64,000 bases of DNA from Microbacterium sp. cf046 (GTDB lineage Bacteria; Actinomycetota; Actinomycetes; Actinomycetales; Microbacteriaceae): contig NZ_FOZJ01000003.1 of assembly GCF_900114345.1 (NCBI RefSeq), positions 620,001 to 684,000 on the forward strand. The letters run 5' to 3'. The notes beneath the pieces were generated by a model. It had not been told where the DNA came from, made no database searches, and worked only from the letters and a program-made list of their open reading frames with translations. The position numbers and the translations under genes are program-made. This document shows, one piece after another, positions 8,120-17,952 of the stretch. Position 1 is the stretch's first letter, and each line of letters starts with the position of its first letter.

Positions 8120-8952
8120 ACCCGGGTGCGATCATCGCCGACGGCGCGCTGTGGGTCGCTCTCCCGATCGCGGTGCTCGCCGGCCTCGTCTCGTTCCTGT
8201 CCCCGTGCGTGCTGCCGCTCGTGCCGGGATATCTGGGCTTCATCGGCGGCTCGGTCGCGCCACGGCCGGCATCCGTCGGTGCGGGCGCATCGCTCGGCCC
8301 CGGCTCGACCACCGGCGCCCCGCTCGCTGACCGAGGAGCGCATCGACAGGACGGAACGCTCGATACAGAGCCGACCCGCGGTCGGCTGCTCGGCGGGGTG
8401 CTCCTGTTCATCGCGGGCTTCACCGTCGTGTTCATGGCGGTCAACATCCTGGGCGGCACCGTCGGGCGGTTCTTCATCGAGTACGCCGAGCCCATCACGC
8501 GGGTGATGGGCGTCGTCGTGATCCTCCTCGGTCTCGTGTTCATCGGACTGTTCGGGTTCGCGCAGCGGACGTTCAAGCCCCAGGTCCGCGGCAATCTCGG
8601 CCTCATCGGCGCGCCGCTGCTCGGCGTCGCGCTCGGGATCGGCTGGGCCCCGTGCATCGGCCCGACGCTCGGAGCGATCCTCGCGATGTCGTGGAACTTC
8701 GGCGACCCGGTGCGCGCCGGTTTGCTCGGCCTGGCCTACTCGCTCGGCCTCGGCATCCCGTTCGTGCTCATCACGCTGGGCTTCGGCTGGGCGACCCGCT
8801 CGGTGGGGTTCCTGCGTCGCCACATCCGCATCGTGAACATCATCGGCGGAGTGCTCCTGGTCGTCCTCGGCGTCCTCATGGTGTCGGGCGTCTGGACCGC
8901 GCTGATGGCGCAGTTGCAGGGGGTGTTCCTGAGTGTCCCGCTCCCGCTCTGA
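8116..8952 (+). CDS. ccdA: Cytochrome c biogenesis protein CcdA
   Basis: 278 residues, six or so membrane helices. Two conserved Cys-Pro motifs mark the DsbD/CcdA core: FLSPCVLPLVPGY near the N-terminus (Cys31) and GWAPCIGPTLGA in the second half. It carries reducing equivalents from cytoplasmic thioredoxin across the membrane to the ResA-like lipoprotein. A Gly/Pro/Thr-rich stretch of about 45 residues after helix 1 (SVAPRPASVGAGASLGPG onward) is longer than in typical CcdA and probably forms a flexible loop. GTG start overlaps the previous stop by 4 nt. Confidence 0.94.
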   Translation: MNPGAIIADGALWVALPIAVLAGLVSFLSPCVLPLVPGYLGFIGGSVAPRPASVGAGASLGPGSTTGAPLADRGAHRQDGTLDTEPTRGRLLGGVLLFIAGFTVVFMAVNILGGTVGRFFIEYAEPITRVMGVVVILLGLVFIGLFGFAQRTFKPQVRGNLGLIGAPLLGVALGIGWAPCIGPTLGAILAMSWNFGDPVRAGLLGLAYSLGLGIPFVLITLGFGWATRSVGFLRRHIRIVNIIGGVLLVVLGVLMVSGVWTALMAQLQGVFLSVPLPL

Positions 8953-10738
8953 GACCCCCGGCGCGCCCGAGCCGACCGAGGGAACACTGCGACCGGCCGA
9001 CCATGCCGACTCCACGACAGATGCGGGCGCGGGCGAGATCACGCAGCCCGCGCTCGGGCTGGTGGGCTGGCTCCGCTGGGGCTGGAGGCAGCTCACGAGC
9101 ATGCGCACGGCGCTGGTCCTCCTGCTGCTGCTGGCGATCGCGGCGGTGCCCGGCTCGATCGTGCCGCAGCGCAGCGCGGACCCGAACGGGGTCACGCAGT
9201 ACTACGTCGACAACCCCGACCTCGCGCCGGTGCTCGACGGCCTCCAACTGTTCGACGTCTACACGTCGATCTGGTTCTCGGCGATCTACATCCTGCTGTT
9301 CATCTCGCTCATCGGCTGCGTGATCCCGCGCACCAGGCACCACTGGAAGGCGCTGCGTGCACGGCCGCCTCGCACGCCGGCACGGCTCGAGCGCCTCGCC
9401 GACTTCCGTTCGTCGATCATCGAACTGCCTGCCGGCGCGGCACCCGACACCGCGGCCGCGACGGCGATCGAGGTGGCCGCCGACCAGCTCAAGCGCGGTG
9501 GGTACCGCGTCGAGCGCTACGACTCGCGCGGCACGCTGTCGGTCTCGGCCGAGCGCGGCTACGTGCGCGAGACGGGAAACCTCGTCTTCCACACGGCACT
9601 CATCGGCGTGCTGGTCGCGGTCGGCGTCGGCGGCGGATTCACCTACACCGGCCAGGGGGTGATCATCGAGGGCGGCACGTTCGTGAACACCCTGCTGGAC
9701 TACACCTCCTTCAATCCCGGCCGCTTCGTCGACGAGGAGACGCTGACGCCGTATTCGCTGACGCTCGACGACTTCAGCGTCACCTACCAGCCCTCCGGCA
9801 CGCAGGGTGCCGGGCAGGCGGGCGACTTCGTCGCGCATCTGACGACCCAGATCGCGGGGGAGAGCGCGCAACAGGGCGAGGTGCGGGTGAACCACCCGCT
9901 CGACATGGCCGGAGACCGCATCTACCTGATGGGCAACGGATACGCCCCGACGATCACGATCCGCAACTCGGACGGCATCGTGGTGTTCTCGGAGTCGGTG
10001 CCGTTCCTCGCGCAGGACACGAACATGACCTCGCTCGGGGTGATCAAGGTTCCGGACGGCATGCCCGAGCAGCTCGGGCTCGTCGGTTTCTTCTATCCGA
10101 CACAGGCGCCGCTGACCACGGGGGCATTCGCGTCGGCGTACCCGTCGCTGGTCAACCCGGTGATCACCCTCGACGTGTACGAAGGCGACCTCGGCATCGA
10201 CGACGGCACCCCCCGCTCGGTGTACGCGCTGGACACGACCGACATGACTCAGCTGACGGGCCGCAAGATCGATGTCGACTCGATCGAGCTCGCTCCGGGG
10301 GAGACCGCCGATCTTCCTGCGGGCCTCGGCACCATCACCTTCGAGAACGAGTCGCCTGCCGGCGCCGAAGGCTATGACGAGTCGGTCAAGCGGTTCGTGT
10401 CGCTCTCGATCCACCGGGATGCCGCCGCCACGTGGGTCCTTCTGTTCGCGGTGCTCGCCGTGCTGGGCCTGCTCGCGGCGCTGTTCATCCCGCGCCGGCG
10501 CCTGTGGGTCAAGGCGACCCCGGACGGTCGCACGGTCCGTCTCGAGTACGCGGGCCTGGCCAGAGGAGAGGACCCTGCCATCGCGGCCGCACTCGACCAG
10601 TTCGTGGAGCGACACGGTGACGCGGTCGCGCCGCTGCTGCGCGAGACGCTCACGACGCCGGGTCCGCCCACCGCGCCCGATCGCGACGATGTCGACGGAT
10701 CCGAGCCGGGTCGGGCCGATCCCCGCCCCGTAGACTGA
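8933..10738 (+). CDS. resB: Cytochrome c biogenesis protein ResB
   Basis: 601 residues. Large membrane component of the System II (CcsBA/ResBC) haem lyase. After a hydrophilic N-terminus come paired helices (LTSMRTALVLLLLLAIAAVPGSIVPQ and a second near SIWFSAIYILLFISLIGCVIPR), a third helix (NLVFHTALIGVLVAVGVG), a long extracytoplasmic domain, and a final helix near residue 500. The 'SMRTALVLLLLLAIAAVPG' opening is the ResB hallmark. GTG start lies inside ccdA (20-nt overlap), so expression is coupled. The C-terminal tail is acidic and variable. Confidence 0.94.
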   Translation: MSRSRSETPGAPEPTEGTLRPADHADSTTDAGAGEITQPALGLVGWLRWGWRQLTSMRTALVLLLLLAIAAVPGSIVPQRSADPNGVTQYYVDNPDLAPVLDGLQLFDVYTSIWFSAIYILLFISLIGCVIPRTRHHWKALRARPPRTPARLERLADFRSSIIELPAGAAPDTAAATAIEVAADQLKRGGYRVERYDSRGTLSVSAERGYVRETGNLVFHTALIGVLVAVGVGGGFTYTGQGVIIEGGTFVNTLLDYTSFNPGRFVDEETLTPYSLTLDDFSVTYQPSGTQGAGQAGDFVAHLTTQIAGESAQQGEVRVNHPLDMAGDRIYLMGNGYAPTITIRNSDGIVVFSESVPFLAQDTNMTSLGVIKVPDGMPEQLGLVGFFYPTQAPLTTGAFASAYPSLVNPVITLDVYEGDLGIDDGTPRSVYALDTTDMTQLTGRKIDVDSIELAPGETADLPAGLGTITFENESPAGAEGYDESVKRFVSLSIHRDAAATWVLLFAVLAVLGLLAALFIPRRRLWVKATPDGRTVRLEYAGLARGEDPAIAAALDQFVERHGDAVAPLLRETLTTPGPPTAPDRDDVDGSEPGRADPRPVD

Positions 10739-10742
10739 GCTC

Positions 10743-11828
10743 ATGCCCGGCACCCTCACGCTCGATTCGGTCTCCGTGCTGCTCGTGTGGACTGCGATCG
10801 CGATCTATGCGCTCGCATTCATCGCCTACGCGGTGGACCTCTCCCGGCGCGGCGCCCGCGCGGCCGACGCGCAGGATGCCGTCACCCGCGAGCGCGAGCT
10901 CGTGTCAGTCGGAGCGGCCGAAGCGACTGCCGAGGCCACCGGATCGACGGCCGCGGGCCGGGACGCCACCAGCCGCCTCCGCGCGCAGGAGCGCGAAGCC
11001 GAGGCGGCGTTCCAGGCTCCGCCGAGCGAGCGACCTCGCCTGATCTGGGCGCGGATCGGCACGTCCCTCACCGTCCTCGGCTTCCTCTTCCACCTCGGCG
11101 GCGACATCACCCGCGGCATCGCCGCCGGGCGCGTGCCGTGGTCGAACATGTACGAGTTCGCGCTGACCGGGACCTTGCTCATCGTGGCCGTGTACCTGGC
11201 ATCGCTCCTGCGGTACGACCTTCGCTTCCTCGGCTCGTTCATCACCGGGCTCGTCGTCCTGCTGCTGGGTGGCGCAGCCCTCGCGTTCTACGTCGAGATC
11301 TCACCTCTGATGGACCCGCTCAAGAGCGTCTGGCTCGTCATCCACGTCTTCGTCGCCTCCCTCGCGACCGCGATCTTCGCCCTCGCGTTCGGATTGTCGG
11401 TGCTCCAGCTCATGCAGGCGCGACGGGAGCAGAAGACGGCGGCTCTCGCAGACGCGTCGAGCGCGACGATCGCGGCGGCCAAGACCGGTCCGCGCTTCCT
11501 GCGCACCCTCCCCGGCAGCGATGCGCTCGAGTCGATCGCGTACCGCTTCGCGATCATCGGCTTCATCTTCTGGACGTTCACCCTGATCGCCGGGTCGATC
11601 TGGGCGAACGACGCGTGGGGCCGCTACTGGGGCTTCGACACGAAGGAAGTGTGGACGTTCGTCATCTGGGTCCTGTACGCGGGCTACATCCACGCGCGGG
11701 CCACCCGAGGCTGGCGCGGCTCGCGGTCCGCATGGCTCTCGATCATCGGCTTCACGGCCGTCATGTTCAACTTCACGATCGTCAACATGTTCTTCAAGGG
11801 TCTGCACGCCTACTCCGGCCTCAGCTGA
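10743..11828 (+). CDS. ccsB: c-type cytochrome biogenesis protein CcsB (ResC)
   Basis: 361 residues, eight predicted helices. The tryptophan-rich haem-handling motif is clear in WGRYWGFDTKEVWTFVIW, as are the conserved His residues (FHLGGDITRG, and LYAGYIHARATRGW). Together with ResB it exports haem and attaches it to reduced apocytochromes. Although only 4 nt follow resB, TAGACT (10731-10736) lies exactly 6 nt before the ATG, inside the resB 3' end, suggesting an extra leaderless promoter. A cytosolic segment of about 45 residues after helix 1 is Ala/Glu-rich. Confidence 0.94.
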   Translation: MPGTLTLDSVSVLLVWTAIAIYALAFIAYAVDLSRRGARAADAQDAVTRERELVSVGAAEATAEATGSTAAGRDATSRLRAQEREAEAAFQAPPSERPRLIWARIGTSLTVLGFLFHLGGDITRGIAAGRVPWSNMYEFALTGTLLIVAVYLASLLRYDLRFLGSFITGLVVLLLGGAALAFYVEISPLMDPLKSVWLVIHVFVASLATAIFALAFGLSVLQLMQARREQKTAALADASSATIAAAKTGPRFLRTLPGSDALESIAYRFAIIGFIFWTFTLIAGSIWANDAWGRYWGFDTKEVWTFVIWVLYAGYIHARATRGWRGSRSAWLSIIGFTAVMFNFTIVNMFFKGLHAYSGLS

Positions 11829-12217: not shown

Positions 12218-14212
12218 CTACGCGGGAACCGGCGACGCGGCCAGCAGATCCCGCGAGTGCGCGACGCGACGCCGCGCGACCGCGATCGTGGTGCCGATGA
12301 ACGCGAGCACCGACCAGATCAGCAGTCCGGCGATCCCCGCGCCGAGGCCGGCGGCATCCGTCAGCGCGGCCAGCATCCCGTTGTAGGCGGGTGCGGTCGG
12401 AAGCAGCGATGCGGCGTCCGACAGCACTCCGGGCACGGTCGAGACCACGCCGGTCGCGACGGCCAGCACCCCGACGAGGGCCGCGAGCCAGCGCCCCGCG
12501 CCGCCGAACACGGCGACGAGCGCCTGGTTCACGGCTGCGAAGGCGACCCCTGCCGTCACGCACACCGCGGCGAAGACCGACCACTGACCCCAGTCGTACG
12601 ATGCCGCGAGCTGCACGACACCTGCGACGAGCAGGCCCTGCACGGCACCGAGCGCAGCGGCCGGCGCGAGTCCCCGCAGGGCGAGCACCGCAGACGGGGC
12701 GCGCGAGGTCAGCGCGCGACGCGACGCGGCCTGCAGTGCGACGAAGGTGCCCAGTCCGCCGAACCAGAGGGCGAGGGTGGCCAGCAGGGGCACGGCCGAT
12801 GCGCCGAACAGCGAGGAGCCGATGCCATCCGTCGTCACCGGGTCGGCGACGACGGTCGCCAGGCTCGTCGCATCCTCATCGGAGTATGAGGGAACAGCGG
12901 CTGAGGCCTGGTCGAGTCCGTCCGCCAGGGTCGTCGTGCCGTCGGCGACCGACTGCACTCCGGTGGCCAGCGTGCCGGCGCCGTCCGCGAGCTGCGTGGC
13001 ACCGTCGCTGAGCTGAGCCGCTCCGGATTCCAGGCCCCGGGCGCCCGTCGCGGACTGCGTCGTGCCGGAGGAGAGCTGAGACAGTCCGGACGCGAGACCG
13101 CGCGTCTGGCCGGCCGCCTCGGTCAGCCCCGCACTGGTCTGCGAGGTGAGCTGCTGGATGCCGCTCGCCGTGGGCGCCGCGTAGCCGCTGGCGGTGCCTG
13201 CGCTGGTCGCCGCGGTCACGGCGTCACCTGCGGCGGCGCCGGCGCCGCCTGCGGCGGCGGCCAGATCCGCGCAGAAGGTCGGCGAACCGCCCTCCGCCGT
13301 GCACTGGGCGCTGAGTCCGCCGAGCGTCTGGGCGAGGCCCCCGACACTCTGGGCGAGGGCGGCCGTCTCCGAAGCGGCGGTCGCGGCGTATGTCGCGCTT
13401 GCCTGAGCGGCGCCGACGAGCTGCTGATTGTTCACCTGCGCGGCGGCGGTGTCGAGGCCGGCGGCGAGCTGGGTCGCCCCGTCGGCGGAAGCGGCGGTGC
13501 CGGCAGCGATCTGGTCGAGTCCGGAGGCGAGCGCGCCGGCGCCCGACGAGAGCTGCGAGGCGCCCGAGCCGAGCTGGGACGCACCGGCGGGCAGGGCGGC
13601 AGCGCCGTCCGCCGCCTGCTGCGCTCCGTCGGCGAGCTGGTGGGCGCCGTCCGCCGCTTCGCCCAGCTGGTCGCCGAGGGTCGTGAAGCCGAGGAACACG
13701 TTCTCCAGGTAGACCTGCGACAGCTGCTGCCCCATGATCGAGGCCGCCGCAGCGGTCACCTGCGCCGTGATGGCGTCGTCGACGACCTTCGAGTCGGGCG
13801 GGGTCGAGACCTCGATCGTCGCCTGCTCGGGCGTTCCGCCGGGCGCGGTCGAGGTGGCGGCCGCCGAGAAGTTCGCCGGAATCGTCACCACGGCCTGGTA
13901 CGTGCCGTCCGCGAGGCCCGCAGCGGCGTCGTCCGCGTTGGAGATCGTCCAGTCGAGGTTGCTCGCGATCTCATCGGAGCCTTCGACGAGACCGGCCGTC
14001 AGCTGGCGGCCGAGCGGCACGTACTGATCGTCGATCGTGACGGGCTCGTCCTCGTTCACGATCGCGGCGCTCATGTTGTCGAGGCGCTCGGCAGGGTTGT
14101 AGAGCGCCGCCACGAGGATGCCGCCGATCAGCACGGGCAGCAGGAGCACGCCCACGAGCGTGAGCCACGTGATGGGGCGCCGCGAGCGGGCGCGTTCGAT
14201 GTGGAGGGTCAT
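12218..14212 (-). CDS. YhgE/Pip domain membrane protein
   Basis: 664 residues. One N-terminal helix (ITWLTLVGVLLLPVLIGGIL) is followed by the extracytoplasmic YhgE/Pip domain (LYNPAERLDNMSAAIVNEDEPV). Then comes a very long Ala/Gly/Ser coiled region of degenerate 7- and 11-residue repeats (ASQLGSGASQLSSGAGALASG and similar), and a C-terminal group of about five helices resembling ABC-2 permeases. The family includes Lactococcus Pip (phage receptor) and ESX-associated secretion proteins. The start is the ATG overlapping the MMPL stop by 4 nt. Co-transcription with an MMPL transporter suggests a joint envelope or export role; the substrate is unknown. Confidence 0.9.
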   Translation of the reverse strand: MTLHIERARSRRPITWLTLVGVLLLPVLIGGILVAALYNPAERLDNMSAAIVNEDEPVTIDDQYVPLGRQLTAGLVEGSDEIASNLDWTISNADDAAAGLADGTYQAVVTIPANFSAAATSTAPGGTPEQATIEVSTPPDSKVVDDAITAQVTAAAASIMGQQLSQVYLENVFLGFTTLGDQLGEAADGAHQLADGAQQAADGAAALPAGASQLGSGASQLSSGAGALASGLDQIAAGTAASADGATQLAAGLDTAAAQVNNQQLVGAAQASATYAATAASETAALAQSVGGLAQTLGGLSAQCTAEGGSPTFCADLAAAAGGAGAAAGDAVTAATSAGTASGYAAPTASGIQQLTSQTSAGLTEAAGQTRGLASGLSQLSSGTTQSATGARGLESGAAQLSDGATQLADGAGTLATGVQSVADGTTTLADGLDQASAAVPSYSDEDATSLATVVADPVTTDGIGSSLFGASAVPLLATLALWFGGLGTFVALQAASRRALTSRAPSAVLALRGLAPAAALGAVQGLLVAGVVQLAASYDWGQWSVFAAVCVTAGVAFAAVNQALVAVFGGAGRWLAALVGVLAVATGVVSTVPGVLSDAASLLPTAPAYNGMLAALTDAAGLGAGIAGLLIWSVLAFIGTTIAVARRRVAHSRDLLAASPVPA

Positions 14213-17121
14213 GCGTCGACTCCTTCGGGGTCGCTCTGCATCAGGTCTGAGAGGTCCGTCGCGGGCGCGGCGGCTGGACGCGAAGGACCGGACTCGACGG
14301 CACCCCTGCGAACGGAGACATCGAGGATCGGGGAGTCCGGCCATCCGGCATCCGCGATCAGGCTGCGCGCGGCTTCGGGGTGCGTCGACGCGACGATCAG
14401 GGTGAGTCCGGGCATCGCGGACGCGGCATCCCGCAGCAGCGCCGCCGCCTGATCGTGGACTGAGCCGGACACGAGTGCGTCGAGTGCATCGACCATGACG
14501 ATGCGCGGACGGCCGGCCAGGGCGCGGCGCAGGTCGCCGACGGGCTGGGCGGAGCCGTCGAGCAGCGCGACGCCGACATGCGCGCGGACCCAGGCCTCGC
14601 GACCCGGAAGGAGGTGTCCGCCCACGCGTGCACGCCCCTCCAGCGCCGCGCGGCCCGCCAGCGCGAGCAGCAGCGCGCGCGGCCCGCGCGCATCCTTCGC
14701 GGTGAGGATCAACGCCCGGCTCGGTTCGACGCGGAATGCGATGTCTTCGACGAGTCGCACCTCGCCGGCATCCACGTTCACTCCCTCCGCGACGACTGCG
14801 GCCGTCGTGTCAGGTTCCGGCCAGTCGGTGAGGGCGAGCTCTCGCTGCACCGCCTCGCCTTCGATGTCGAAGTGGGGCAGCGTGCGCTCGAGCCACTTCG
14901 GCAGCCACCAGGCCCGGTCGCCGAGCAGCGCCATCACCGCCGGAGTCAGCGTCATCCGCACGAGGAACGCGTCGATCACGATGCCCACCGCCAGACCGAG
15001 GGCGATCGGCTTGAGCGAGGCGTCGCCTTCGGGGACGAAGGCCGCGAACACGGCGAACATGATCAGCGCCGCGGCGGTCACGACGCGCGCCGACGAGGTG
15101 AACCCCGACCTGATGGCGGCGAGCGCGATGGCCCGAGCCTCCGCCCGCGTGGCGCCGCTCCTGCGGGAGTGGACGTAGTCCTCGCGCATCCGGGAAACCA
15201 GGAACACCTCGTAGTCCATCGCGAGCCCGAACAGCACGCCCATCAGCACGATCGGCATGAAGCTGATGATCGGCCCGGTGCGGGTGACGTGGAGGAGCTC
15301 GGCGAGCCATCCCCACTCGAACACCGCCGCGACGACGCCGAACGCGGCTGCGACCGACAGCAGGTACCCGAGCGCCGCCTTGATCGGCACGGCGATCGAG
15401 CGGAAGACGATCGTCAGGAGCACGAGCGAGAGGCCGACCACGAAGATGCCGAAGGGGATGAGCGCCGCGCCGAGCTGATCGGAGATGTCGATCGCGACCG
15501 CCGTGAAGCCGGTGACCTTGACGTCGATGCCGTACTCGTCGAGCCAGCGGTCGTGCTGCGCGCGCAGCTCGCGCACGAGTTCGGCCGTGGCGGGGTCATC
15601 CGGCGCTGTCGTGGGGACGAGCTGGACGATTCCGGTGTCTGCCGTCTGGTTCGGCGTCGCCAGCGCGACCAGCTCGACACCGGGGAGGCTCTCGACGTCG
15701 TCGGAGAGGTCGCTCATGAGCCCCACGGGGTCGTTCGAGGTCACGATCGTGCCGGTGAGGATGATGGGGCCGTTGAATCCGGGACCGAATTCCTCCGCGA
15801 CGAGGTCGTAGCTCTGGCGCGCCTCGTTCTCCTCGGGGAGCATGCCGGCGTTCGGCAGAGCGAGGGCGAGGCTCGCGGCCGGGATCGCCATGACGAGGAG
15901 GGTCACCACCACCGCGACCGTCGTGACGATCCGATGCTTCGTGACGAGTCCGACCCAGCGCGTCGCGAACCCGCGCGTGGTGGGGGGAGCCGCGTCCGCA
16001 GCGACGGATCCGGCCGCCGACACGCCGCTCGCGGCATCCGTGCTCCCCGCGGTGCGCCGGAGACCCCCTCGGGTGGGCGCGCGCTTCGCTCGCCTGGGCC
16101 GCCCGGCCACCCGGCCCTTGAGGAAGCCGAGCATCGCGGGGGTGAGCGTGAGGGCGACGAGCACGGCGATCGCGACGGCGACCGCCGCGGCGATGCCCAT
16201 CGTCGTCAGGAACGGGATGCCGGCGAACGAGAGTCCGATGAGGGCGATGAGCACCGTCACGCCGGCGAACACGACGGCGGATCCGGCCGTGCCGGTGGCG
16301 CGCGCGGCGGACTCCTCGGGGTCCACTCCCGATCGGACCTGGTCCTGATGTCGGGCGACGATGAACAGCGCGTAGTCGATGCCGACGGCGAGGCCGAGCA
16401 TCAGGGCGAGCAGCGGCGTGGTCGAGGAGATGCTCGCGAACGCGGTCGAGAGGAAGATCAGCGCGATCGACAGGCCGACGCCGATGATGGCGGTCAGGAG
16501 CGGCAGCCCGGCCACGACGAACGAGCGGAACGTCACGATCAGCACGAGCAGCGCGATGATGAGGCCGACTGCCTCGGTCAGGGTGACCCCCGGGACCGAC
16601 AGCGCGAACAGGTCGCCGCCCAGGGCGACCTCCGAACCGGCAGGCAGCTCATCGCGCAGTTCGGCGGCGACATCCTGCAGGGCGGTCTTGGTGCCCGGCG
16701 GCACATCCGTCGCCTGTCCGTCGAACTGCATGCGCACGATCGCGGCATCGCCCGCGTCGGAGACCTGGCCGTTGACGATCTCGCTGAACGGATCGGTGAC
16801 GGCGAGGATGCCGTCGAGGTCTTCGAGTTCGGAGATCGTGTCTGCGATCGCCGAGGAGTACGGTTCGTCTTCGATCTGCGCGCCGTCGGCGGCGACGACG
16901 ATCATCTGCGCGCTCGTGCCGCTCGCCTGCGGGAATGTCCGGTTCAGCTGCTCGATGCCCGCCTGCGACTCGGTGCCGGGGATCGAGAAGGAGTTGTCGG
17001 TGCCCTGCCCGAGCGTGACCGCCCCGACCCCCGCGATGCCGAGCAGCAGCAGCCACGCCACGAGGACGCGCCAGGAGTGTCGGTACGACCAGCGCCCGAG
17101 GGCATACAGGAGAGTGGACAC
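14209..17121 (-). CDS. MMPL family RND transporter with degenerate ABC-like C-terminal domain
   Basis: 970 residues against roughly 700-770 for ordinary MMPL proteins. The transporter part has two repeats, each with a helix, a large external loop and five more helices; the RND motif appears as GLAVGIDYALFIVARHQDQV in repeat 1 and GLAMDYEVFLVSRMREDY in repeat 2. Residues about 776-970 (14212-14796) add a domain that reads like a decayed ABC ATPase: VVAEGVNVDAGEVRLVEDIAF, a Walker-A position with LTAKDARGPRAL, and a Walker-B-like RIVMVDALDAL. The Lys/Ser of Walker A is missing. The GTG start at 17121 is preceded by GGAGG; longer readings upstream run through the operators and are rejected. Confidence 0.9.
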   Translation of the reverse strand: MSTLLYALGRWSYRHSWRVLVAWLLLLGIAGVGAVTLGQGTDNSFSIPGTESQAGIEQLNRTFPQASGTSAQMIVVAADGAQIEDEPYSSAIADTISELEDLDGILAVTDPFSEIVNGQVSDAGDAAIVRMQFDGQATDVPPGTKTALQDVAAELRDELPAGSEVALGGDLFALSVPGVTLTEAVGLIIALLVLIVTFRSFVVAGLPLLTAIIGVGLSIALIFLSTAFASISSTTPLLALMLGLAVGIDYALFIVARHQDQVRSGVDPEESAARATGTAGSAVVFAGVTVLIALIGLSFAGIPFLTTMGIAAAVAVAIAVLVALTLTPAMLGFLKGRVAGRPRRAKRAPTRGGLRRTAGSTDAASGVSAAGSVAADAAPPTTRGFATRWVGLVTKHRIVTTVAVVVTLLVMAIPAASLALALPNAGMLPEENEARQSYDLVAEEFGPGFNGPIILTGTIVTSNDPVGLMSDLSDDVESLPGVELVALATPNQTADTGIVQLVPTTAPDDPATAELVRELRAQHDRWLDEYGIDVKVTGFTAVAIDISDQLGAALIPFGIFVVGLSLVLLTIVFRSIAVPIKAALGYLLSVAAAFGVVAAVFEWGWLAELLHVTRTGPIISFMPIVLMGVLFGLAMDYEVFLVSRMREDYVHSRRSGATRAEARAIALAAIRSGFTSSARVVTAAALIMFAVFAAFVPEGDASLKPIALGLAVGIVIDAFLVRMTLTPAVMALLGDRAWWLPKWLERTLPHFDIEGEAVQRELALTDWPEPDTTAAVVAEGVNVDAGEVRLVEDIAFRVEPSRALILTAKDARGPRALLLALAGRAALEGRARVGGHLLPGREAWVRAHVGVALLDGSAQPVGDLRRALAGRPRIVMVDALDALVSGSVHDQAAALLRDAASAMPGLTLIVASTHPEAARSLIADAGWPDSPILDVSVRRGAVESGPSRPAAAPATDLSDLMQSDPEGVDA

Positions 17122-17155: not shown

Positions 17156-17188
17156 GATACAGCGCTGTATCGGATACATGAGTGTATC
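17156..17188. promoter_or_regulatory. Two adjacent TetR operators between MMPL and TetR genes
   Basis: GATACAGCGCTGTATC (17156-17171) is a perfect 16-bp palindrome. GATACATGAGTGTATC (17173-17188) repeats the GATACA-N4-TGTATC arms 17 bp further on. They lie 35-67 nt upstream of the MMPL GTG and upstream of the TetR gene, so the neighbouring repressor probably controls both operons. Confidence 0.8.
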
Positions 17189-17268: not shown

Positions 17269-17952
17269 ATGACCGACACCATCAAGGCGCCTTCGAGCGG
17301 CGCGACCACCAGCGCCGTGACGACGCGGCGCCGGGAGGCGACGCGTCAGAAGCTGCTGGATGCCGCGGCGCTCGTGTTCGCCGAAGAGGGTCTGGACGCG
17401 GCATCCGTCGAAGCGATCTGCGAGCGTGCGGGGTTCACGCGCGGCGCGTTCTATTCGAACTTCGACTCGAAGGACGAGCTGTTCCTCGAGCTCGCCGGCC
17501 GGGTCGCACGGGCGCGGGTCGAATCCGTCCGCGAGCGGGTCGCGACGCTCGAGCGGGACGGCGGCCTGCATGTCGATGAGATCGACGCTCTGGCGGTCGT
17601 GCAGGAAGTGCTGGATGTCTCGGGCGATGACCGACTGGCGATCCTGCTCATGAGCGAGATCCGCATCCATGCGATGCGGGACGCCCGGCTGGGTGCCGCC
17701 TACCTCGCGCAAGATGCCGAGATGCGCTCGAGTGTCGCGCAGATCATCACCGACATCAGCGTCGCGAAGTCGCTGCGGTTCCGGCTCCCCGCCGACGAGG
17801 TCGCCCGTCTGATGCTCACGGTGTGGGAGAGCGAGTCGGTGCGCGCGACGATGGCCGGACTCGACTACGAGGCGGCGTGCCGTCGTACCAGCGAGGAGCT
17901 CGCCCGCGTGGCGCTCCTCGTGATCGACCAGTCCGAGGTCGACCCGGTCTGA
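17269..17952 (+). CDS. TetR family regulator of the MMPL/YhgE operon
   Basis: 227 residues. The HTH occupies about residues 20-65: TRQKLLDAAALVFAEEGLDAASVEAICERAGFTRGAFYSNFDSKDELF, a textbook TetR N-terminus with the 'AFYSNF.SK..LF' recognition block. The effector domain is divergent. The ATG at 17269 follows GAAGGGAG at a good distance; a longer in-frame reading from 17182 would overlap the operator region and is disfavoured. Divergent from the MMPL-YhgE operon with paired palindromes between them, so repression of an envelope exporter is the likely job. Confidence 0.9.
   Translation: MTDTIKAPSSGATTSAVTTRRREATRQKLLDAAALVFAEEGLDAASVEAICERAGFTRGAFYSNFDSKDELFLELAGRVARARVESVRERVATLERDGGLHVDEIDALAVVQEVLDVSGDDRLAILLMSEIRIHAMRDARLGAAYLAQDAEMRSSVAQIITDISVAKSLRFRLPADEVARLMLTVWESESVRATMAGLDYEAACRRTSEELARVALLVIDQSEVDPV

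Follow-up and report, generated by a model that had tools for sequence, protein, structure and literature searches.

A degenerate ABC ATPase domain on the tail of an MMPL transporter and its linkage to YhgE in Microbacterium and related actinobacteria

Introduction

Why should a membrane transporter of the RND type carry on its tail an ATPase-like domain that has no ATP-binding motif? The question is raised by a locus of Microbacterium sp. cf046 (NCBI RefSeq assembly GCF_900114345.1, contig NZ_FOZJ01000003.1). The stretch analysed here, 64,000 nucleotides from position 620,001 to 684,000 of the forward strand and hereafter called the window, holds a gene for an MMPL transporter with about 195 residues behind its last helix and, directly downstream, a gene for a YhgE/Pip family protein. 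YhgE/Pip proteins are widespread and, to our knowledge, no function is established for them. A first-pass annotation, made by a model from the letters alone, had described the tail as a decayed ABC-ATPase-like domain that could be regulatory or could serve as a dock, perhaps for YhgE. The answer proposed here is that YhgE's ATPase-like partner was probably captured on the tail of the MMPL pump and has been kept there as a non-hydrolysing dock that joins pump and YhgE.

Fold and ancestry of the C-terminal domain

The domain is numbered here from residue 752 of the MMPL protein and, taken alone, comprises 219 amino acids (P0003). AlphaFold, run with 79 sequences, predicts for it an ABC nucleotide-binding domain (NBD) fold of about 167 residues, with a mean pLDDT of 89.5 and a pTM of 0.81. 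Foldseek comparison of this model with the PDB gave 906 matches at E ≤ 0.001, and the best 50 of these (E 3.9e-9 to 2.6e-7) were nearly all named as ABC proteins. When the Foldseek matches were given a second look with VIA-align, the 50 matches listed were all entries of ABC proteins (Z 14.5–16.5, 152–170 residues, model span about 21–187), the best being 4yer_B with a Z of 16.5, 159 residues aligned and an rmsd of 2.5. Most of the solved chains listed are about 40–60 residues longer than the model over an equal span, which fits the helical subdomain being missing from the window domain. As modelled, the window domain has the fold of an ABC ATPase, and the ABC-like domain of the first-pass annotation, a proposal that hinged on a P-loop NTPase fold, stands.

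Single-sequence comparison of the domain alone gave little. The Pfam scan returned no family at E ≤ 1, which leaves the domain below the PF00005 cut-off, NCBIfam returned only weak matches to ABC ATPases (UrtE 0.05, DevA 0.2), and the search against the sequences of solved structures gave nothing significant, its best match (E 0.039) being a non-ABC protein. A chance ABC-like pattern was nevertheless rejected on the fold and the profile matches. The domain goes beyond chance because it was matched in 143 of the 149 genomes sampled from the genus at E ≤ 0.001 (134 of 135 of those of good quality; one match, in G046, was counted though weak and in a frame of 369 amino acids) and because of the mean pLDDT of its model. 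The borders were taken from a model of the full-length MMPL protein (pLDDT 76.6, pTM 0.68), which served for this only: the final long transmembrane helix stops at residue 747, residues 753–765 form a linker helix and strands run from residue 776, which fits the border at 776 in the first-pass annotation.

Among the fused loci studied two forms of the domain occur. The long form (237–294 amino acids in L172–L201; also L287 with 258) is not shortened at the helical subdomain, and the short form, found in the other family loci (180–250 amino acids) and in the window, lacks about 50 profile columns there, those of the subdomain that would bear the LSGGQ signature. Stand-alone genes were surveyed at 20 YhgE loci of the phylum without MMPL, picked by hand, and the first-pass suggestion that ATPase genes might stand there in the equivalent position proved mostly right: at 15 of the 20, YhgE is immediately preceded by a stand-alone ABC-like gene. 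In profile comparisons these stand-alone proteins matched the short fused form with an E value of 1.6e-20 and the long form with 4.5e-28, and they in turn matched the canonical ABC ATPases of the Microbacterium sp. cf046 genome with 2.9e-29, to which the fused forms compare directly with 8e-11 (short) and 5.5e-12 (long). The stand-alone alignment used here (A7) omits L297, L298, L302, and L303, and the canonical one (A8) represents 30 of the 119 PF00005 places of the genome. On these profile matches the domain descends from ABC ATPases and is homologous to the stand-alone proteins upstream of YhgE.

Eight of ten stand-alone proteins scanned exceeded the PF00005 cut-off (27.4–54.4 bits), and two (L298, L307) gave no match. 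The assignment of L303 is less sure, with an E of 1.4e-6 where the same profile gives 1.2e-7 to a canonical ABC ATPase encoded close by in L312, and its position beside YhgE therefore weighs as much as its score. As a group the stand-alone proteins (L297–L300, L302–L310, L312, L313) form what looks like an unusual ABC family, one for which a separate model seems warranted. Three of the 20 loci (L314, L315, L316) hold tandem pairs of YhgE genes, with no ABC-like neighbour detected.

Catalytic motifs and conserved residues

Conservation was read from 79 aligned domains (A5), i.e., the window and 78 of the 80 named loci; L062, which holds N, and L076, whose frame runs on into YhgE, were left out. 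The Walker A motif GxxGxGK[S/T] is absent from the window domain, and AKDARGPR, which the first-pass annotation had placed at the P-loop position, does lie in the profile alignment under GPxGSG[R/K]T of the related stand-alone proteins. The former P-loop keeps instead a D-x-R-x-x-R pattern, with D59 in 76, R61 in 65 and R64 in 77 of the 79 sequences. A P-loop with Lys or Arg was found by pattern and checked by reading in 0 of 81 named and window domains, 6 of 60 family domains and 2 of 27 from the order and phylum searches; false matches to the pattern G-x4-G-R-[S/T] (GHLLPGRS in L065, L085, L102, and L103; also L111, L122, and L149) were removed by the reading. In the stand-alone proteins the Walker A residue is Lys in four, Arg in six and neither in five, so that by sequence P-loop loss occurs in stand-alone and fused members alike.

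The other catalytic positions are similarly affected. No LSGG[Q/E/M] signature was found by pattern in any of 168 fused domains, and the 15 stand-alone proteins gave neither LSGG nor a Glu after the Walker-B-like strand by the same kind of search. The Q-loop Gln is missing from the window domain, where Leu is aligned, and from the whole set (Leu 62, Val 13, Phe 3, Ala 1 of 79). The Walker-B-like motif of the first-pass annotation (IVMVDALDAL) is present, its Asp (D127) being found in the window and in 68 of 79 sequences, and a hhhhD pattern occurs somewhere past residue 80 in 154 of the 168 fused domains. The catalytic Glu that should follow it is absent, the position being Ala in the window, Gly in 76 and Ala in three of the 79, and never Glu; hhhhD-E matched in one of the 168 domains (L081), there at the Q-loop position. 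The later His region of the first-pass annotation is a weaker feature: at the H-loop, as placed by eye, the STHPEA of the window holds a His, and that His is found in only five of the 79 aligned sequences. The best explanation for this pattern of losses is that the window domain has ceased to act as an ABC ATPase.

Conservation is strong elsewhere. Invariant in the 79 sequences are the linker residues D1, E3, G4, E5, A6, E10, W16, and P17 (DxEGEA...E...WP), R73 and G78, and in the stretch VGGHLLPGREAWVRAHV the residues V82, G84, H85, L86, P88, R90, W93, and R95 (V-x-G-H-L-x-P-x-R-x-x-W-x-R). The Q-loop side of an NBD is the seat of the coupling helix of the permease.

Linkage to YhgE

The downstream gene belongs to the YhgE/Pip family by the N-terminal model TIGR03061 (120.5 bits, cut-off 96.15), while the C-terminal model TIGR03062 scored 49.8 bits (E 3.2e-13), under its cut-off of 102.2. 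It also matches PF12698 (E 8.3e-13), and passages of one study place homologues of the PIP family among ABC-2-type transport proteins (PMC3924187). The stop codon TGA of the MMPL gene (14209–14211) and the ATG of YhgE (14210–14212) share an overlap of 4 nt, and the two genes are not, as first annotated, separated by that distance.

Linkage was followed in 168 domain-bearing loci (the window, 80 named, 60 from the family and 27 from the order and phylum) that had been found by the domain and not by YhgE; L264, whose contig stops 88 nt past the MMPL stop, was non-evaluable, and L105, with its MMPL part off the contig, shows the domain and YhgE only. By an N-terminal YhgE profile, YhgE lies directly downstream on the same strand in all 167 evaluable loci, the profile match starting −58 to 512 nt (median 27) from the MMPL stop. 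The same profile gave no YhgE downstream of 48 domain-less MMPL genes, hand-picked from the order and phylum hit lists, with at least 3 kb downstream in 46 of them and 1355 and 1627 nt in the other two. All 20 unlinked YhgE loci were recovered by this profile, whose reach therefore extends beyond the clade. The tie to YhgE is in this respect stronger than the first-pass annotation could tell from the letters alone.

For the MMPL part a rapid tree was built from the window, the 60 family and 27 order or phylum loci, six of the 80 named loci and 12 of the 48 domain-less rows. The 94 domain-bearing rows form one group (SH-aLRT 99) together with a single domain-less one, L283, which is nested within it. 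L283 keeps the linker (DVEGEGL), but its protein ends 45 residues after the start of the linker and no YhgE follows; nor was a match to YhgE found at E ≤ 0.001 in its genome (G466, completeness 100). Three other genomes of the same genus (G346, G439, G453) have both the domain and YhgE. The simplest reading of these sequences is that domain and YhgE were lost jointly in G466.

The genome of Microbacterium sp. cf046 has only two YhgE loci, one behind each of two fused MMPL genes. The second of these (G000:C3:1202780-1203358; L002, L162) likewise ends in a degenerate ABC-like domain, 29% identical to that of the window, and has its own YhgE behind it. A third MMPL gene of the genome is domain-less (L353:3-2163; G000:C3, about 723.9–726 kb) and is followed after 71 nt by an ordinary-looking ABC ATPase frame (GPNGAGKT, LTGEQ, LLVLDEP), i.e., another neighbourhood of MMPL and ABC genes.

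The pump itself matches PF03176 in two stretches (E 5.8e-80), as in an MMPL/RND core of two halves, and the Asp-Tyr pairs D249-Y250 and D636-Y637 are invariant in 45 aligned sequences (A6; the window and 44 of 74 candidate full-length named loci). In MmpL3 such pairs act as the proton relay, and as they are kept here the pump can presumably be proton-powered. Orthology with MmpL3 was rejected, as the equivalog model NF052608 scored 200.3 on the window protein against a curated cut-off of 1400.

Distribution and selection

In the family sample the profile matched in 127 of 150 genomes, many of the matches lying in short frames that resemble ordinary ABC ATPases. The fused loci studied, 60 from the family (one being the paralogue in the same genome as the window) and 27 from the order and phylum searches, spread over ten family groups (f1, f3, f7, f8, f9, f12, f14, f16, f19, f24) of one bacterial phylum. 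Six fused family members have a P-loop or its Arg variant. Four of them score above the 25-bit cut-off of PF00005 (L142 25.6, L143 26.1, L154 28.4, L163 30.4) and are the only ones to do so among ten fused members scanned; L146 (21.7) and L155 (17.9), with a P-loop-like motif present, fall below it, and four long forms gave no match. The carriers of a P-loop are scattered over the MMPL tree with 8 state changes, many forks being weak, and provided that a lost P-loop was not regained it would have been lost repeatedly.

The ratio dN/dS stays under 1 in every one of the 2738 pairs compared, which are non-independent (MMPL dS 0.05–0.8, domain dS < 1.5), and is 0.06–0.21 in the nine closest pairs printed. 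No domain frame ends early, the shortest of the 168 having 178 amino acids. The domain is under purifying selection that is looser than on the MMPL part. Pseudogene decay was rejected on the frame lengths and on dN/dS. The word decayed in the first-pass annotation holds for the catalytic motifs, which are gone, but not for the open frame, which has been kept under selection. In Microbacterium elymi (L076:7001-8059, also L006) the domain frame continues into the start of YhgE with no intervening stop and is then broken, either as a natural read-through fusion or by a sequencing frameshift. L010, L012, L020, L025, L028, L031, and the paralogue L002 were excluded from alignment A1, and L183 and L200 from A2.

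Discussion

The fusion probably arose from an ABC-type ATPase-like cytoplasmic subunit that was the partner of an ABC-2-like YhgE/Pip protein and became joined to the tail of an MMPL transporter in an early actinobacterial lineage. ATP use was probably weak or absent already in the YhgE-associated family, which has neither signature nor catalytic Glu, and erosion of the P-loop would therefore have cost little. In the lineage of the window both the helical subdomain and the P-loop would then have been lost, with the fold and a docking face staying under selection, and the conserved stretch retained by the Q-loop position would be the side that receives the coupling helix of the permease. The most likely role of the domain is that of a rigid cytoplasmic dock by which YhgE is held against the MMPL pump. 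The pair would then work as a single TetR-controlled exporter, driven by the proton motive force via MMPL, with a toxic or lipidic compound as its possible substrate. It is tempting to go further and to see here a hybrid transporter in which the ABC-type permease YhgE has swapped ATP for the proton motive force and the dead fused ATPase passes the proton-driven movements of the pump on to YhgE, uniting two great exporter classes in one machine; this we consider possible but doubtful.

Several observations weigh against a dock between pump and YhgE. The linked loci all fall within a single MMPL clade and cannot be counted as separate events. When distance matrices from 163 of the 168 loci were compared, the coupling between domain and YhgE beyond what MMPL explains (partial r 0.44 with the N-terminal part, 0.32 with the C-terminal one) was below that between MMPL and YhgE beyond the domain (0.56 and 0.44), and as the latter is higher the comparison does not single out the domain. 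Five of the 20 YhgE loci without MMPL have no detected ABC-like neighbour (L301, L311, L314–L316), so that YhgE may in places do without such a partner. Among the fused relatives eight retain a P-loop (K or R), and some may thus bind ATP. Finally, the domain evolves faster, with a median dN/dS of 0.48 compared with 0.25 for the MMPL part.

The weaker constraint, together with the diverse lengths and the missing catalytic motifs, is also what would be expected of a functionless evolutionary remnant, drifting after loss of the ATPase role. This explanation is very improbable, given that none of the 168 frames falls short of 178 amino acids, that dN/dS stays below 1 throughout the 2738 pairs and drops to 0.06–0.21 among the closest printed, and that many non-catalytic residues are invariant. 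A function need not involve YhgE, however, and regulation was the other role put forward in the first-pass annotation. The domain could be a regulatory or sensor module of MMPL alone, responding to a non-ATP ligand or a cytosolic protein, with YhgE being a separate product of the operon, and the D-x-R-x-x-R kept at the former P-loop in the 79-sequence set is in line with such a module. The linkage to YhgE in 167 of 167 loci with the domain and 0 of 48 without, and the joint absence of both in G466, tie the domain to YhgE and not to MMPL transport as such, which makes an MMPL-only module unlikely.

It may also be asked whether ATP still powers the system through an asymmetric NBD dimer on YhgE, in which the pseudo-NBD is paired with an intact NBD encoded at another locus, much as in exporters where one of the nucleotide-binding sites is degenerate. 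There are 119 PF00005 matches in the genome that could provide one, and impaired sites are a familiar feature of ABC exporters (PMC7756269). Yet no further member of the YhgE-associated family was found in this genome, every place that profile A7 ranks above the two fused domains being a strong PF00005 match, and there is no third YhgE locus. In addition, the helical subdomain with the signature, which is needed to complete the site of the partner, is missing, and all 15 stand-alone partners are without LSGG and without a Glu after Walker B. We find such a dimer quite unlikely. A non-hydrolysing dock between pump and YhgE remains the explanation that we prefer.

Relation to known systems

With the ABC NBDs of PF00005 the domain shares the fold, the order of strands and helices and the Walker-B-like Asp, and four fused relatives lie above the Pfam cut-off; it differs in having no Walker A motif, no helical subdomain with LSGGQ, no Q-loop Gln and no catalytic Glu, and in being carried by an RND pump. 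An NBD is likewise retained despite an impaired site in degenerate ABC exporters of the TAP, TmrAB, and CFTR type (PMC7756269), but there one site stays active, whereas the search of the present genome gave no active partner from the family. With MMPL/HAE2 transporters such as MmpL3 the pump has in common the two stretches of PF03176 and the Asp-Tyr pairs in the membrane core. We know of no C-terminal ABC-derived domain and no YhgE partner of MmpL3. The YhgE of the window is a family member by its N-terminal model, and it is set apart by its linkage to an MMPL-borne pseudo-NBD where the 20 other loci surveyed in the phylum have a stand-alone ABC-like gene (15) or none (5).

The literature searched, mostly at the level of titles and abstracts, held no description of an MMPL-ABC fusion or of such a partner of YhgE; the passages of PMC12584985, found for MMPL with YhgE, were not about it. 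As far as these sources go, what is new is that a pseudo-NBD sits on an RND-type pump, since ABC exporters with degenerate NBDs are already known (PMC7756269).

The locus suggests that many YhgE/Pip proteins of actinobacteria are membrane proteins of an ABC-like kind, each served by its own NBD-derived partner, which is kept past the loss of ATPase motifs, and it offers a concrete handle on YhgE function. If the domain is indeed a dock, the passage from P-loop-bearing to dead domains would be a natural series that separates NBD-permease coupling from ATP hydrolysis, and the pair could be a case of an RND pump running an ABC-type permease.

Other features of the locus

The coordinates of the features are collected in Table 1. 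A TetR gene similar to the divergent one of the window is found upstream in 68 of the 79 named and window loci that have enough upstream sequence. The two palindromes in the intergenic region are possible operators, and together with the divergent TetR gene they point to an inducible exporter.

Table 1. Features of the MMPL-YhgE locus (positions in the window)
Feature	Positions	Strand	Basis
YhgE/Pip family protein, 664 aa, with ABC-2-like membrane parts	12218..14212	minus	TIGR03061, PF12698; 4 nt shared with the MMPL stop
MMPL (RND) transporter gene with C-terminal ABC-derived domain	14209..17121	minus	970 aa, GTG start; PF03176
Pseudo-NBD core, predicted ABC ATPase fold without helical subdomain	14308..14808	minus	domain residues 21–187; AlphaFold and VIA
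Walker-B-like IVMVDALD, without catalytic Glu	14479..14502	minus	D127 and following residue in 79 sequences
Most conserved core stretch VGGHLLPGREAWVRAHV, just ahead of the Q-loop position	14575..14625	minus	invariant residues in 79 sequences
Degenerate Walker A position AKDARGPR, D-x-R-x-x-R kept in the 79-sequence set	14677..14700	minus	profile alignment
Linker DIEGEAVQRELALTDWP..., residues 752–775, from last MMPL helix to NBD-like core	14797..14868	minus	conservation and model helix 753–765
Two adjacent palindromes GATACAGCGCTGTATC and GATACATGAGTGTATC, TetR-MMPL intergenic	17156..17188	.	shared GATACA...TGTATC half-sites
TetR-family regulator, divergent	17269..17952	plus	PF00440, E 3.1e-16

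Three contigs titled Stenotrophomonas maltophilia, Planococcus, and Frigoribacterium (L069, L072, and L080, respectively) carry Microbacterium-like MMPL-YhgE loci and are possibly contaminated or wrongly named. Elsewhere in the window, two adjacent frames on the plus strand (8933–11828) may encode the cytochrome c biogenesis proteins ResB and CcsB, which they resemble in sequence.

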